From: Brachionus manjavacas
Taxonomy: Eukaryota; Rotifera; Eurotatoria; Ploima; Brachionidae
Length of the DNA stretch: 64,000 bases
Reading direction: 5' to 3'
Assembly (NCBI GenBank): GCA_019054805.1
Contig: JAHQIY010000002.1
Location: 372,001 to 436,000, forward strand
Positions 3,741 to 36,172 of this stretch are shown piece after piece (the first letter of the stretch is position 1; every line of letters begins with the position of its first letter). Under the pieces are notes generated by a model. The model did not search any database. It was not told where the DNA came from and saw only the letters and a program-made list of their open reading frames with translations. Position numbers and translations under genes: made by a program.

Positions 3741-5494
3741 TCATTTTGGCAAGCCAACATCAATTAGAATGTATGTAAATAAATTGAAAATTTTGTATTT
3801 GACTATTTTGTACTGCACATTATTTAAGCCGTCATTTTTCTGCATTGTTGAGGTTCGACGCAACAACTTAAATCGATCTTTATTCAGTTTTTGCGGTTTA
3901 TGCTTCATCATTTTGTACCTGGCTACTTGCTTGGGAGGCCGTTCCAATGTAAATTTCATCCGAGTCAATCGATTGGCAAAGTCATCGTCTTAAATTAAAA
4001 ATTAAAGAAAATTTTATAAAATTTTTTTCTAATTCGAAATTTTAATTTATTTATTTAAAAAATGAAAAATTTAAAATATTTATTTAGTGAGCTATTTTTT
4101 TCTAAATCGGAAAATTATGATTTTTATATAAAAAAAAGTGAACCACATTAAATTATTTGGCATTATTCTCCTAGAATACATAATAAGTATTCTTTAGTAA
4201 AAAAAAATGCATTTATTTGTATTTCAGAATGCAAAAAACTTAATTTCAAATTTTTTCTTATAGTTTTTATTTTTATTTCTAAATAAATTCTAATTTTGCT
4301 ATCAAAAAATGGACAGCTGAATTATGTAGTGGTGAAAAAAAACTTTGAAAATTTAATTTAAAGTGTAGGTAAAAATTTAAAAAAATGCCAATTTTATTTA
4401 CCTTCACCACCCCATCCCCAATAAGAGTTCGAATATCCATTGGCACCTTTGTATTGTTCCGCTCGAATAGACAGAACTCCTCCAACTAAATAACTGTAAG
4501 GCAAAATATAATCAAACTTATCAATAGCAACGCTCAGGTGCCTGGGTCGGGATGTACATGTATAAACATTTCTGCTATCTTCAGGCACCAAATCTACATC
4601 ATGAAAAACAATGCAATCATATTTATCTACTTTGAGGGCTTCTAGATAAGCCGAATTCATTACTCTTCCTTTATTGAAACTGATGTTCAGTGGAATGGTC
4701 GGTTCGACCACAAAAATTCTGTAGTCAAGCATTTGACGCTGTAGAAACATGTGAAGATAGTTTGTGATGACTTTCAAATGAGGTAATCTGTCTCTGAAGG
4801 GAATTATGATGGCCACTTTGAAGCGACTATTGCACTCTTTGGGTTTCCAGTGACCACCAAGTTCTATGCCTTCATAGTCGACCAAATCGGTGGAATTCAC
4901 TGGCAAAGTTGCATTCAATAAGTTAATGTCAGTCGAGTTCCAAAGCTCTGGCTCTTCAAATGTAGAGTTATAAGATGTGTTTATGGGCTTGTAAAATTCA
5001 ACCAAATTGGACACATTCAGCTCTGATAAAACTTGTTCCACGTCTATGCGTCCTGTTAAGTTATTATCTAATGAATGAGTGCAAATGTCAAATGGCTCCC
5101 GTATCGAAGCAAACGCTTCCCTCACAGCTCGTTTGATTTTATAAAATTCGTCATACATCTCATTAAAGTTGTAATTAGTCTTGTTCATCTCATCCTTTAT
5201 ATCTTTTAGATAAAGTTTTTTATAATCAGCCGTCTTTCTCTGCACAATGTAATTCCAGTTAAAAAGACACAAAATCGAGATCAAAGAGGTAAAGAATATA
5301 AATTTTTTAAAATATCGTACATAAAAGACTTTCATTGATGAAGACTGGTCACTCAGTGGTTGGTCATATTTCATGAGATTGTCAGATGTGTCCAGATCTA
5401 TGCTCGATATAGCGTCCAAGTCCAAAAAGGTTCTTTCGTTCTCAAAAGATTCGCTTATTGGCGACGAAAGTCTTTTCTTGACTAAATCATTCAT
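3741..5494 (-). CDS. beta-1,4-galactosyltransferase-family glycosyltransferase, copy B (complete, two exons)
   Basis: Exon 1 is 5494-4402 and exon 2 is 3988-3741, joined by a 413-bp GT-AG intron in phase 1; 446 aa predicted. The join gives WGWGGE-DDDFANRL, exactly the family's catalytic motif, and exon 2 carries the usual tail (ERPP, ARYKMMKHK, DGLNNVQYK, ILIDVG). Exon 1 has a cytosolic segment of about 60 residues, a membrane anchor near 62-84, DVD at 299-301 and Leu336 at the donor-specificity position (GalNAc-type residue). Several NxS/T sites are present. A block of about 350 bp (4592-4942) is nearly identical to copies A and C, while sequence on both sides is clearly diverged, which indicates gene conversion. 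Family identification is firm; acceptor substrate and exact sugar donor are not. Confidence 0.93.
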
Positions 5495-15388: not shown

Positions 15389-16478
15389 TTATTCATCCTC
15401 GTCACTGCTATACTCAGCTAGAGAAGAGAGAGCACCAAGACTTGACTTAACTTGATCTTTATCTTCATTCGGAGCTGTATCGGGTTTCTTTTTGATAAAA
15501 GATGAAATTTTTGATTTTGTCAAAGCATTATTGTTGGACTGGCTTATTGTTGGATTTTTTAAAAATTCCGACAAAGCACTAGCCTTGGATTCATCTATTT
15601 TTATTCTCTTTGACGAGATCTCTTCTTCATTTTCTTCTAGCTTTATCTTTTCTCTTTTAGATTCGTCTAACTCGACTTGTTCATCATCAGAAACTTCCTC
15701 GGAATTTTTATTCCTAAAAATCCTCCTTATCTCTTCTTCATCTTCTTCTTCCTGCCTTTCCAGCACCTTTTTCTTCAATTCTTCGTGCTCTTGTAGCAAA
15801 ATTTTTGGGTCTACGGACGCATGGGCTGCATTTAGCTCTCTAATATCCTCCAAAGTTTCCAAGATTGCCATTTCTCGCCTAGAATCACGCGTTCGATTTT
15901 CCAAAATTTTCATAGGATTGTTTGCTTCCTCTTCCTTTTCTTGCTTAGCTTCCAGTTCTGCTTGTTTTTCTGCTAGACGAATGCATTCGAAATTTCGAAT
16001 TGCGCCAAACTCCATGTGATAATCTGAATTTTCTGGATCGGTCTTTAAATAAAACAATTAAAAAACTTAAAAATTTCTTTAAAAAAATTAGATTATACCA
16101 GAAATGTAATTTCTGCCAAACATTTTGTACACTTAATGTAAAATCTATACACTTGAATACCAAGATATGTCTTTCCGATTACGTCTTCTTTTCTGGCATT
16201 GAATTTTTTACCTCGGTAAATGTATTCACCGCATGTTGTACATCTGTGATTAAATATTTGTTAGATTAAGGAAAATAAAATTGATAAAAAGTAGTACCTC
16301 ATATTGAATGGTGCCATGAGACGAATCGTAAACTGACGATTTTTTTCTCGTTTGACCCTCGGGAGTTTCGAAGGGTCGAAATTTGGCGGGTAATATTTCT
16401 AGGAAAAGAAATGACATGAGTTTTATTCAGGATTTCGACATAAAATTTACTTACATTTAAAACTTTTCTTTCAGACAT
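15389..16478 (-). CDS. yju2: YJU2/CCDC94 pre-mRNA splicing factor
   Basis: Yju2 joins the Prp19-associated spliceosome and helps dock the 5' splice site and branch helix for the first catalytic step. Four exons: 16478-16455, 16398-16298, 16243-16099 and 16042-15389, with 56-57-nt GT-AG introns; total 924 nt, 307 aa, against about 320 aa in human. N-terminal [19 protein letters not shown] is diagnostic. A zinc site is formed by Cys43/Cys46 (CTTC) and Cys80/Cys83 (CTKC), the same spacing as the family. [25 protein letters not shown] and a helical segment follow, then a Lys/Glu/Ser-rich tail ending YSSDEDE. The closely related CCDC130 paralogue is less likely because of the N-terminus and zinc spacing. 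Confidence 0.95.
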
Positions 16479-27852: not shown

Positions 27853-28157
27853 ATGAAACTCTTAAAGTCAAGTCAAGTCAATGACTTAAAATTTTTTTTT
27901 TTTAGTGAAGTTTAGTCAAGTGAACTAATTATCTGATTTTTAAACTAAAAAATAAATATGATTTTTTATTTTAATCCAAAAAAAGTTTAGTTTTAAAATC
28001 AGAAAATTAGTTGACTCGACTAAACTTCACTAAAAAAATGAAAAAAATTTTTAAGACATTGGCTTTGACTTAAGAAAAAAAAAATTTAAGTCAAGTCATA
28101 ACTTTGACTTAAATTTTTCTGACTTAGACTTAAAACTGTGACTTAAAAAAAAGTCTG
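27853..28157. repeat. hAT-type MITE, copy 4
   Basis: Right end in reverse complement starts CAGACTTTTTTTTAAGTCAC and continues close to the MITE at 13817 for tens of bases. The left end (AAAGTCAAGTCAAGTCAATG) keeps the inner repeat but has lost the CAG tip. It abuts the LINE RT remnant at 28143-28640. Confidence 0.6.
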
Positions 28158-28640
28158 GAATGGTTCCATTGGAACAACGCTATCGCCTGATTTGAGTTTT
28201 GATCTATATTTTGTTTCATAGCCAGGACGGTAACCAGCAGTTGTAAAGACACAATAGTTGGTCTTGTTTGAGTTAATTTTTAAATCCCATTCTATGCAAA
28301 ATTGAGTGATTTGTTTAATCCCATTGTTCAAGTTTATTTCAATTTGTTTTAGAGATTTGTTGGTAGATCAAATACACAGATCGTCAGCGAAGATGGCAAT
28401 TTTTAGTTTTTTTGGGATCATGTTTACAATGTCACTAAAAAAGAGTAAAAAAAGTGTAGGTGATAGACAGCTCTCTTGAGGGACTCCGGTTCGAATGCTA
28501 AATTCCTTCAGCATGTAATTGTTAACACAAACTTGGAACTTTCTGTTTAATAGGAACTGTTTAATCCAATGAAGCTCATAATCTAATTTGCCGAATAATC
28601 GACGTTGATTATAAATTCTTAATGAACTTGCATGTCAAGT
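28143..28640 (-). mobile_element. non-LTR retrotransposon reverse transcriptase remnant
   Basis: Read on the minus strand from about 28625: GKLDYELHWIKQFLLNRKF, then TGVPQESCLSPTLFLLFF, the catalytic FADD box (IAIFADDLCI) followed immediately by an in-frame stop, then QFCIEWDLKINSNKTNYCVF. These are RT motifs 3 to 6 of CR1/jockey-like LINEs. Stop codon, missing ends and the abutting MITE show it is dead. The clade is a guess from motif wording. Confidence 0.78.
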
Positions 28641-30377: not shown

Positions 30378-32880
30378 ATGAAATTGTTAAGTTTGCTAAT
30401 TTTATTCGGGACTGCTTTTGCGACTCCGGTTCCCACCGAGACCTATTCTAATGAATTGGTCCTAAAAGAGCCAGATATTTACTACTTGTTTTGGACTTAC
30501 AATGACACGGACATTTTAATGGAAACTCATGTGAAGACAACAGGATGGGCTGCTTTTGGAATCAGTCCCACTGGCGGAATGGATAATTCAGATGTTGTGG
30601 TTTCTTGGATTAATACCGATGGGACATATCATTTTACCGATAGACATATTAGAGGAAGAAAAGTGATTGTAGATCAGAAACAGAATTGGTTTCCGGTGTC
30701 TGTATTTCAAAAAGATGGCTATTTAGTCACAAAATTTAGTAGAAAAATTAGAATATGTGACGAGTCCAAAGAAGATTTGGACATTCCCACCGGAACTCCA
30801 AAGACCATTTTTGCATTCGGAACAATTTTAATTGACGATGACATTGGATATCATGGAATGAATAGAGGCATCAAGTCTGTTCCTTTAATAAGCTCGTTGA
30901 ACAATGTGGCTAAGTTTAATTTAGATGAAGTTGATCAAGTTGAATACAGAGTTAATGTAAGTGAATATTTCTAAATTTTTTGAAAATTTTACAAAAAATA
31001 AAATATAAAATAAAGTATACTTTCGATGGCCTTCAAGACACTTTGTACTATTGTGCAATGTTTAAATTGCCTGATTCATGGATCAAAGAAAAACGTCATT
31101 TAATCAGAGTAAAAAATTAGTTATTTTTGGTTTTTTTATTAAATATTTTTTGTAAGTATGAAACTTTGTATTCACCTGGTACGGAAGAAAATCTTCACCA
31201 TTGGACTGTCAATGAGTGTGGATCAGAATTTGAGGAAATTTATTTGAAGAATAATGATTTACCCAAGCAAGGCGAATGCTTTTCAGGAGATTGGTTAAAA
31301 GCAATTCAGCATTGTCGCAAAATTTCGCTTGTTTGGGCTGTCGGAGGAGCAACTGTAAAGTCCAATATGTTTTTTGCTAAATTTATTTTAACATTCCTTA
31401 GATTCAAGATTTTCCTGAAGACTTGGCTTACCCAATGGGCGGTCCTGATGAAGAGACTAAATATTTTTTTCTTGAGATTCATTATGATAATCCGAAATTG
31501 AAAAAAGACATTACTGATAATTCCGGAGTGCGATTGTATGGTACAAAAAATTACCGTCAAAAAGAATTCGGTGTTTTCACAGTAGGAGCAAGTGAGAATT
31601 ATAATGGAATTATTGTTCCACCAGGTGCCGATACATTTAGGGTAAATTATGGATGCTCAAGTGATTGTGTCGATGTAATTTTAAAAAAAAATTTTATTTT
31701 TTGTTCAATTTTAAAATTTTTATAAGAAAATTTTTGAAGAACAAGAAGAAATCAAGGTGTTCAGTACTTTGCCACATACCCATCTTACTGGTAAATTTTA
31801 TGCATATATTTTTTGATCTATAAGGATAAATATTTGATGAAATTAAATAATCAAGGTAAGGAGATTTATACTAAAGTGATCCGTGATGGAAAAGAAGTGG
31901 CCTATTTAGCCAACAACAAATATTATGACTTTAATTATCAATATTACAACTTTTTGAACAAGCCTGTCACCCTAAAAAAAGTTTAAAATCTTAAAACATT
32001 TTAGCAAAATAATTCTTTCTTTTTTCAAAAGGGAGATGAACTGCTCACAGAATGTGTTTACACCACCAAAAATAAACAAGAATTTACTTATGTAAAATTT
32101 ATTTTTGATTTAAATTTAAAAATTAGAAAATAATAACTTTCAAGGGAGGTTTATCAACAAGAGAAGAAATGGTAATTTCTCCAAATTTAAATTAAAATAG
32201 ACTAATTTTTTATTTTTGAAGTGGTAAGAGTTTAACAAAAATGGATGAATTATATTTTTTTAATTAAAATTTTTCAAGTTTTACTTTTATTTGGTATTAT
32301 CCTAAAACATCGGCATCTCTATGCGTCGAAGAATTCGAACAAAAACAATGGATTGACTTTCTGTCTCAATTCAAAGAGTAAATTTAATTATTCTTCATTT
32401 GTTATTTTTTTTAAATGTTTTCAAGCTCGGGTGAAATGTATGCCAATTTAAATTTAACCATAGAGGATTTGTTTAAACCAGGAGATGAGGCACTAAAACT
32501 CAGAATCGAAAAACCCAGCGAAGAATTGATTAAAAAATTCGAAGATTTTCATAATAAGAATCCTAGAAGACAAATATGCATTGCAAATAAGGTATTATGG
32601 TTTCCTTTAAATTTTTAAGATTAAAAATTCAAAATTTGAGCAGAAAACTACAATATCAACTAAAGAGCCTTTTATTGCTGAACCGATTGTAGATGAATTT
32701 TGTTCACAAAAATCAACAAGCCAGGTCACAACAATTTCAGCATCAATGGCTAGTTCATCGATTTTAACCACAAAGAAATACCAAAAAACATCTACCAAAC
32801 CTATGATTTTTTTTAATTCCTCCAATTTTATCAATATTAACTTTTTTTTATTACTCATTAGTTTATTTTTGGTTAGTTAA
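30378..32880 (+). CDS. DBH/MOXD1-like copper type II ascorbate-dependent monooxygenase
   Basis: Secretory-pathway copper hydroxylase of the dopamine/tyramine beta-hydroxylase and MOXD1 group. Twelve exons: 30378-30956, 31016-31108, 31157-31354, 31402-31674, 31727-31790, 31856-31980, 32032-32091, 32127-32171, 32222-32223, 32279-32377, 32426-32591, 32641-32880; 1944 nt, 647 aa. Signal peptide 1-15, DOMON domain about 30-150, then both Cu domains: CuH ligands His238/His239 (LHHW) and His317 (HYDNP); CuM ligands His398/His400 (HTHLTG) and Met479 (STREEM). The frame is open only if a 2-nt exon TG is used, giving the family's Cys480 after that Met. The tail ends in a hydrophobic stretch (FFLLLISLFLVS), suggesting a GPI signal or membrane anchor, unlike soluble DBH. 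Substrate unknown; start chosen for the signal peptide. Confidence 0.92.
32222..32223 (+). other. 2-nt microexon (TG) of the monooxygenase gene
   Basis: TG lies between an acceptor (TTATTTTTGAAG) and a strong donor (GTAAGA), with flanking introns of 50 and 55 nt, typical for this gene. Exon 8 ends ATG in phase 0 and exon 10 begins T-TTT-ACT; only two added bases keep the frame open, and TG+T makes the Cys conserved in DBH/MOXD1 (EMC). All direct joins that skip it run into stops. No transcript evidence is available here. Confidence 0.75.
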
Positions 32881-34014: not shown

Positions 34015-35478
34015 TTAATGATCAGGAAGACCAACATCTATCAGAATAAATGTAAACAATTTAAAATAACTCTTTTTTAATATTCTATATCTCACTCTGT
34101 TCAATCCATCCGAAAGTCGCAAAAATTTTGTCTTTTTCAACAATTCATATCTTTTTTTGTTTAAATTTTGAGGTTTATGCTTAATCATTTTATATCTAGC
34201 AATTGAAATCGGTGGTCTTTCAATTTTCAGCTTTAATTCACCAATCCTCTTACCAAAATCATCATCTTAAAAAAAATTTAATTTAATTTTTATTTAGTTT
34301 GTTACATCATATTAAAATTATTTTTTAAATTCAATCAATAACAAAAATACTTAATTTTAAAATAAATTTTTTATTAAATTTTTTTATTTACCTTCGCCGC
34401 CCCATCCCCAATAAGAGTTCGAATATCCATTGACTTTCTTGTATTGATCAGTCCGGATAGATAGAACCCCTCCAACCAATGTTTGATATGGAAGTTTGTA
34501 CTCGAATTTGTCAATAGCCACGCTCAGATGTCTAGGCCTGTGCGAACATGTGTAAACATTTCTGTCGTCCTCGGGAAGTAGATCTACATCATGAAAAACA
34601 ATGCAATCATATTTATCTACTTTGAGGGCTTCTAGATAAGCCGAATTCATTACTCTTCCTTTATTGAAACTGATGTTCAGTGGAATGGTCGGTTCGACCA
34701 CAAAAATTCTGTAGTCAAGCATTTGACGCTGTAGAAACATGTGAAGATAGTTTGTGATGACTTTCAAATGAGGTAATCTGTCTCTGAAGGGAATTATGAT
34801 GGCCACTTTGAAGCGACTATTGCACTCTTTGGGTTTCCAGTGACCACCAAGTTCTATGCCTTCATAGTCGACCAAATGTGTGGAATTCACTGGCAAAGTT
34901 GCATTCAATAAGTTAATGTTAGTCGAGTTCCATAATTCTAAAAACTCCGATTTATCTATTTGATTAGGCTTTGAATAATTTAAATTTTTTATATCCATAT
35001 TGTGTTTTAAGTTGGCATTTGAGTAAAACTCGACCAGACCATCTAGACCAAATTCTGCCAAAACTTGGTTCACATTGATAGTATTTTTCCTATTTATTGT
35101 ATAATGTTCATTATCACACAATTCAATTGGCTTGTTTATTGATCGAAATGTTTTAAGAATCGAATTTCTTATATTGATAAATTCTTTTTCAAACGTTGAA
35201 CTATTTAAAAAAATTTTATCAATTTTTTTAGTCGAATAGTCAATCTTTTTTTTAGTGTTAAGGAAAATAAATGCAAGAGATAATAAAGCAAAAAAAAACA
35301 AGAATTTTATTTGTAGTTTTATTCTTTTTGAAAATTGATTAAAATTCATTGCGATTAATTTCAATTTTTCTTTAAATTTAATCATGTAACAAATACAAAA
35401 TTGAGACCTTAAATAAGATCGATTGAATAATTTTATTTTAAATTTTTGAAACGTCAGCAGCTTTTTCAAAAATATCAT
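34015..35478 (-). CDS. beta-1,4-galactosyltransferase-family glycosyltransferase, copy C (complete, two exons)
   Basis: Exon 1 is 35478-34392 and exon 2 is 34265-34015 (126-bp intron, phase 1), up to 445 aa. The splice gives WGWGGE-DDDFGKRI, followed by ERPPISIARYKMIKHK, LSDGLNRVRYR and ILIDVGLPDH. Membrane anchor near residues 56-73; DVD at 297-299; Leu334 at the donor-selecting position. The start is uncertain: Met44 (ATG at 35349) would leave a short cytosolic tail before the anchor, more typical of type II Golgi enzymes, and would give 402 aa. From 34383 to 35056 the gene matches copy A with only three visible differences, although its N-terminal region is different; its exon 2 differs from copy B, and copy A's is outside the window. 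Located about 1.1 kb downstream of the monooxygenase gene, convergent with it. Confidence 0.92.
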
Positions 35479-36172
35479 CTGGTGTCTGAAGTTAAAAATA
35501 TAAAAAATTTGTCTTTCATTTTATTATTTTAATATCAAATGACTAATGTCGATTCAGATGGTGTTGATTTAAAGACAAAATATTTCTTTAAATAACAAAG
35601 AAATTTTTAGAAATTTTTAGAAATTTAAAATTTTTATTAAGTGGGTTCCTAAAATCAAAAATTTTCATTATTATTGAAGAGTGTTTAAAAATAAATTTTA
35701 AAAATTTTTTAAGTGAGACACATTTTTTATGAATTAATAACAGTTTGAATATTTTTCATAACTGATTTATTTAAATTAATTTATGATCACAATCATTGTA
35801 GTTCATTTTATTACATTCTAAATCAGGATTTCTTCTTCTTCAATCTTGATAATATTTCAATTCTAGCTGCTATAGCCCAGACCTTTTAATCAAGTAGTAG
35901 ATGCACCCAGAGAAAAAAATCTAAAGATTCTATGAATGGACGTTTTTCCCTCAAAAATACTTGAAATGAACGAACGAATAATTTCAATGTTTGTTTTTTA
36001 AAGACAATTATTAAAAAAAACTTTTAATTTTTAAAAATATTTAACTTTTAATAAATTTCAAGCCAATTTTTACATTTTGCAATTATGAGAAATTAAGTAA
36101 TAATAAAGCACCCTGGCCAGTCGGGCAACGATATGAATTAATATTCATTATCCTTCTAAGATTTATCACAGG
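35479..36172. other. upstream region of glycosyltransferase copy C
   Basis: No recognisable coding or repeat content. Presumed promoter region for the minus-strand gene. Confidence 0.45.

Follow-up and report, generated by a model that had tools for sequence, protein, structure and literature searches.

The window analysed here, a stretch of 64,000 nucleotides, corresponds to bases 372001-436000 of contig C2 of the Brachionus manjavacas genome (114 Mb, 61 contigs). It was AT-rich, with a GC content of 21-34% across 4-kb blocks. No RNA families at gathering score and no tRNAs (ARAGORN) were found in the window. Three genes on the minus strand, at 50-1143, 4394-5494 and 34015-35520, had near-identical C-terminal halves and differing N-terminal parts; their motifs suggest galactosyltransferase-like genes, and their likeness may reflect duplication combined with gene conversion or with an exchange of exons. 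Also on the minus strand, the gene at 15389-16478 seems to resemble the splicing factor YJU2/CCDC94, and a fragment at about 28130-28634, broken across frames, looks like part of the reverse transcriptase of a non-LTR element, with a putative FADD motif.

The gene of interest, on the plus strand at 30378-32880, contained 12 exons (Table 1). Its spliced protein possessed the DOMON, Cu2_monooxygen and Cu2_monoox_C domains of the DBH/MOXD copper type II ascorbate-dependent monooxygenases, with E-values of 1.3e-22, 3.7e-24 and 2.1e-38, respectively. The alignment with human DBH (4zel) covered residues 56-491 with an E-value of 3.6e-55. By these features the gene product is a DBH/MOXD1-like copper monooxygenase, whose activity is predicted. 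The lengths of its nine introns other than introns 8 and 9 ranged from 47 to 65 nt.

Table 1. Exons of the DBH/MOXD1-like gene and the two introns flanking the predicted 2-nt exon (positions in the window)
Feature	Position	Strand	Description
Exon 1	30378..30956	+	hydrophobic N-terminus, DOMON
Exon 2	31016..31108	+	
Exon 3	31157..31354	+	includes HHW, aligned with the CuH ligands of human DBH
Exon 4	31402..31674	+	
Exon 5	31727..31790	+	HTH, aligned with the CuM ligands
Exon 6	31856..31980	+	
Exon 7	32032..32091	+	holds Cys452, aligned with C466 of human DBH
Exon 8	32145..32171	+	27 nt, GGLSTREEM; ends GAA GAA ATG, last codon Met473 (CuM ligand position)
Intron 8	32172..32221	+	50 nt, GTAATT...GAAG; acceptor sequence TTTTTGAAG; ACTAAT branch-site-like at 32201-32206, branch A 32205
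Exon 9	32222..32223	+	predicted 2-nt microexon TG, bases 1-2 of the Cys474 codon
Intron 9	32224..32278	+	55 nt, GTAAGA...CAAG; acceptor sequence TTTTTCAAG
Exon 10	32279..32377	+	begins TTTTACTTT; first T completes TGT (Cys), then FTFIWYYPK
Exon 11	32426..32591	+	
Exon 12	32644..32880	+	runs to the stop; hydrophobic C-terminus

The original prediction was that a 2-nt exon, TG, lies between exons 8 and 10 and completes a conserved cysteine codon. The coordinates and the flanking splice sites that it gave for this exon were exact, and the two introns so defined were indeed of normal length for the gene. At the site, AG and GT directly flank TG. The predicted spliced junction is ...GAAGAAATG-TG-TTTTACTTT..., which yields GGLSTREEMCFTFIWYYPKTSASL. 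The numbering of the preceding methionine as residue 479 was incorrect: with the ATG at 30378 as the start codon, the methionine is residue 473 and the cysteine residue 474.

Direct joining of exon 8 to exon 10 led to an early stop after EMFYFYLVLS, as had been claimed. To enumerate single introns, GT-AG, GC-AG, AT-AC and AT-AG pairs of at least 30 nt were considered, with donors from 32151 to 32279 and acceptors up to 32300. None of these pairs linked the frames of exons 8 and 10 without a stop. The claim that every alternative AG in the interval gives a stop thus held for single-intron joins, but not for microexons. When exons 8 and 10 were fixed and neither intron could be shorter than about 25 nt, the frame was restored by the length of five AG...GT segments. 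Those of 8 and 29 nt contained a stop and were rejected. Those of 20 nt (32201-32220) and 23 nt (32201-32223) were open, but were set aside because they require a first intron of 29 nt and insert residues beside the copper ligand, where the protein is highly conserved. TG at 32222-32223 was the sole open microexon among those enumerated with both introns longer than 29 nt and the only open solution enumerated with GT-AG introns of a length normal for the gene. TG is needed to keep the frame and would encode most of the codon of a conserved residue.

The splice sites around TG were ordinary for this genome. The percentiles were derived from matrices of 53 introns, comprising 44 predicted introns of 38-90 nt and nine of this gene, from which introns 8 and 9 were left out. 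The four splice sites of introns 8 and 9 fell between the 38th and 62nd percentiles, with the acceptor before TG at the 42nd and the donor after it at the 62nd. Within the range scanned in the introns of this gene, a CTAAY branch-like match was found in intron 8 alone, with its branch A 16 nt before the acceptor. The median length of 49 introns sampled from the genome was 55 nt. Four of them were at least 100 nt long, so length does not bar a single intron of about 107 nt, and the shortest was 31 nt, so short introns may occur. The chance occurrence of such a site was assessed with 20,000 dinucleotide shuffles of the interval in which the first 6 and last 15 bases were kept. An AG-NN-GT of any kind that left both introns at least 38 nt long was found in 4.9% of the shuffles, and one with TG at that position in 0.30%. 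Both sites were as strong as the observed ones in 0.14%, and the combination of TG with sites as strong was found in none.

A simple gene finder based on dynamic programming, with codon usage, splice-site matrices and a length prior, was also applied to 264 kb, although some runs covered only part or all of the window; introns 8 and 9 were excluded from its splice-site training. All runs placed an exon precisely at 32222-32223. Most runs barred introns shorter than 30 nt, by which the 20- and 23-nt segments were excluded by construction, and the TG exon was chosen again when introns down to 20 nt were permitted. When the acceptor at 32221 was forbidden, the score fell by 4.9 log units, a 1-nt exon was put at 32229 and the 3' end of the gene was broken. 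Loosely selected self-training drifted: over three iterations, 2, 11 and 14 internal exons of 12 nt or shorter were called, the TG exon counted, and the last iteration also broke exon 11 of this gene. With stricter self-training, 1, 4 and 4 internal exons of 6 nt or shorter were called in 264 kb, and the TG exon was in every list. Because the drifting iterations also called other tiny exons (three others of 6 nt or shorter, up to 13 others of 12 nt or shorter), the choice made by this crude gene finder is by itself weak, supporting evidence. Separately, a 1-nt exon, C, was called near position 1003 of the window (minus strand) in two drifted iterations and was absent from the last run; it is probably an artefact.

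It is very unlikely that a larger microexon starting at 32201 is used instead, with extra residues between the methionine and FTFIWYYP. Both the 20- and the 23-nt forms are open in frame with AG and GT at their borders, and one of the 49 introns predicted in the sampled sequence of the genome was 31 nt long, so introns nearly as short as theirs may occur. However, the 29-nt intron that they require is below the 47-65 nt of this gene, their acceptor scored 2.01 vs. 3.85 for that of TG, and the AG at 32200 on which they depend comes just before ACTAAT, the branch-like motif of intron 8. Moreover, the gene finder passed over them when introns down to 20 nt were permitted, and an insertion at this position was seen in no homolog: 55 have Met-Cys, and local alignment detected no such segment in the 24 others without EMW.

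The completed codon, TGT, encodes Cys474, which adjoins Met473. The alignment with 4zel was ungapped through EEMC...YYP. In this alignment, Met473, Cys474 and Cys452 were at chain positions 448, 449 and 427, which correspond after addition of 39 to M487, C488 and C466. The crystal-structure paper on human DBH gives His412, His414 and Met487 as its CuM ligands and describes a disulfide between C466 and C488 (PMC4846438). The copper-ligand residues HH and H (CuH), HxH and M (CuM) and the two cysteines C466 and C488 all had aligned counterparts in the rotifer protein, the Cys474 half of the disulfide pair depending on the 2-nt exon itself. By homology with the C466-C488 disulfide of human DBH, Cys474 would be disulfide-bonded to Cys452. 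As Cys474 is the equivalent of C488, the microexon would supply two thirds of the codon for a structural cysteine beside a copper ligand.

Three protein searches identified 83 distinct homologs, of which 59 reached the site. The remaining 24 had neither E/D/Q-M-C nor an EMW end and did not enter the count for this site, and the segment was not detected in any of them by local alignment. Consistent with the prediction that the cysteine stands where DBH/MOXD1 proteins have M-C, the sequence (E/D/Q)-M-C was found in 55 of the 59 homologs. A proline at +8, the same as in the spliced product, was present in 54 of these 55. The raw count was 53, in which the exception P0021 reflected a second, unrelated match, its true site having proline at +8; P0063, the homolog without it, looks frameshifted. 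The nearest named protein was from Brachionus calyciflorus, with 71% identity over 73% of the protein, and a partial protein of Brachionus plicatilis was 97% identical over 15% of the query at its C-terminal part. No close relative spanning the junction with the cysteine was found in the three protein searches, and the closest full-length proteins were P0003 (51%) and P0002 (47%).

The other four of the 59 homologs, P0001 and P0054 (both annotated from B. calyciflorus), P0058 and P0066, ended at EMW at the protein level. No relatives of P0054 were found in contigs of prokaryote genomes. After ATG, a tryptophan followed by a stop can be encoded as TGG TAA, TGG TAG or TGG TGA, and a GT donor directly after TG gives the first two. 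Thus, the EMW ends may most simply be read as ATG TGG plus a stop, that is, TG with a GTA(A/G) donor directly after it, although some may instead reflect a TGA stop or an incomplete model. Read as TG plus GTAA or GTAG, they would place a phase-2 intron in the cysteine codon of these relatives, at the very base where B. manjavacas has one. A donor directly after ATG, if read through, would give Met-Val and not EMW. The EMW ends therefore suggest that the downstream donor is conserved in relatives. P0066 has the look of a short raw ORF reading from exon 6 through to TG without a break, and for P0066, and possibly P0058, straight read-through to EMW fits relatives that would have the downstream intron only. 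The two B. calyciflorus models stop where a predictor confronted with a 2-nt exon would be expected to stop, with the upstream intron only putative in that species. Both models, P0001 and P0054, are likely misannotated, their catalytic domain lacking its final part.

The same homologs bear on two further explanations of the frame problem. In one, the assembly or the gene itself has lost or gained a base, through a sequencing indel or pseudogene formation, and the interval is a single intron. Two missing bases could be such an error, but the other exons were intact and the alignment with DBH was colinear, the two missing bases are present as TG between fair splice sites, and the 107-nt interval divides into two typical introns. 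Moreover, the EMW ends of the two annotated B. calyciflorus proteins point to the same TG plus donor and thus make a sequencing indel unlikely; we consider this explanation highly improbable. In the other, a single intron with non-canonical ends would keep two extra bases and give ATG-GT plus T (Met-Val) or ATG-AG plus T (Met-Ser). This would restore the frame by one splicing event. However, GC-AG, AT-AC and AT-AG ends gave no solution in the enumeration, which was limited to those ends and GT-AG, the cysteine of 55 homologs would be swapped out with the loss of half a disulfide, and the EMW ends would be left unexplained, so that such an intron is extremely improbable.

Paralog searches identified 13 places outside this gene. 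At nine of them (C17, two on C16, two on C10, C11, C12, C4 and C3:9167014), the E-M-C and the following segment were in one unbroken frame, with the one at C3:9167014 reading E-V-C in place of E-M-C. A tenth paralog, on C7 (260105-263299), shares with this gene the introns between exons 6 and 7 and between exons 7 and 8; it seems degraded before the methionine, has no E-M-C and is probably a decaying copy. The matches on C6, C29 and C3:2305035 were weak (E-values of 0.06-0.3) and lacked the segment. A repeat origin of the interval was also considered and rejected, as its 107 nt matched only itself in the 114-Mb genome, a weak result given that the search skips simple repeats and very common words. 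The 17-mer across the site occurred once in the genome.

The best explanation of these results is that TG at 32222-32223 is a genuine, and probably constitutive, 2-nt internal exon. This is very probably correct, and both the enumeration and the homologs support the original prediction in this respect, although the splicing itself is what we infer from the genomic sequence. The two introns of 50 and 55 nt are ordinary, and each would be recognised across the intron (intron definition). Where introns of about 50 nt are recognised in this way, exon definition would set no limit on the length of the exon. U2AF/U2 at the acceptor ending at 32221 and U1 at the donor starting at 32224, two bases apart, should not both fit. 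As the factors at these two sites would be mutually exclusive, the two introns would be removed one after the other. Intron definition, factor exclusion and sequential removal are argued here from general knowledge of splicing. The predicted product, ATG-TG-T, would encode Met473-Cys474 of the CuM domain.

Skipping of exon 9 gives the EMFYFYLVLS-stop product described above, and retention of intron 9 gives EMW-stop. Since both stop early, accurate inclusion of TG would be needed for the full-length enzyme. The site could also be regulated, with skipping or intron 9 retention producing non-productive mRNAs and the microexon serving as an expression switch, which is compatible with a genuine 2-nt exon. 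The early ends of both alternative products and the annotated B. calyciflorus models that end at EMW are in line with such regulation, but the truncation of these models may equally stem from failed annotation, as reported for plant microexons (PMC8831610), and we regard a regulatory role as unlikely.

Regarding its origin, the predicted 2-nt exon most likely arose through the gain of a new intron between ATG and TG, 2 nt upstream of a phase-2 intron by which the cysteine codon was already split. The apparently uninterrupted ORF of P0066 suggests that, of the two introns, the downstream one came first and the upstream one was added later. That a constitutive 2-nt spliceosomal exon of an animal nuclear gene, formed by gain of an intron exactly 2 nt upstream of a phase-2 donor that already existed, is common to Brachionus species is a tentative proposal, to which we give somewhat less than an even chance. 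If it is true, the birth of an ultra-small exon would have been caught, and intron-definition spliceosomes would set almost no lower limit on exon length.

Exons of 1-2 bases probe how the spliceosome recognises an exon too short for U1 and U2AF to bind side by side, and this gene would provide a compact natural case, of about 110 nt, for sequential intron removal. Ultra-small exons are rare and are also easily missed by annotation pipelines; at this site two public B. calyciflorus models stop, so that their catalytic domain is probably cut short. No 2-nt exon in a rotifer was found in the open-access literature searched by keyword. The original description placed exons of this size near the known limit of definition by a spliceosome, which is fair, except that exons of 1 nt have already been validated. 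These include exons of Arabidopsis APC11 (PMC4674806), plant VPS55 (PMC8831610) and Fusarium CYP621A (PMC12940212), the last of which also notes, citing an earlier study, exons of 2-5 bp for Arabidopsis, Drosophila and human. The predicted 2-nt exon therefore belongs to a known class of ultra-small exons, and its mechanism is not new.

Similar to the exons of Arabidopsis APC11 and plant VPS55 (PMC4674806; PMC8831610), that of B. manjavacas is ultra-small, required for the correct protein and overlooked by annotation. Different from it, the plant exons are 1 nt long and were validated by cDNA, RNA-seq or minigenes, while the rotifer exon is 2 nt long, from an animal and predicted from sequence alone. 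In most monocots, APC11 is described as an intronless gene in which the base is subsumed in one exon (PMC4674806). The exon of Fusarium CYP621A is similar in that it lies in a monooxygenase gene, completes a conserved codon, was found by homology and is placed in an interval about twice as long as a normal intron, but it is a 1-nt exon of a fungus, confirmed by SRA reads in two species (PMC12940212). Among animals, the 3-nt microexon of Drosophila homothorax is likewise nuclear and at the size limit, but is reported to be alternatively spliced (PMC7392893). The 1-bp exon of placozoan mitochondrial cox1 is also an ultra-small exon of an animal; as described there, however, it is flanked by group I introns in a mitochondrial gene and is not spliceosomal (PMC5436844). 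Finally, stwintrons (spliceosomal twin introns), as described, share with this site one interruption from which two introns would be removed consecutively. In a stwintron, however, a splice element of one intron is split by the other, while the introns here have intact ends and TG would be kept in the mRNA; a stwintron was rejected for this site, as the GTAAGA donor is intact downstream of TG and excision of the whole stretch from exon 8 to exon 10 shifts the reading frame. The rotifer exon would be of interest as a compact animal case whose structural role is clear and which may preserve a trace of how it arose.
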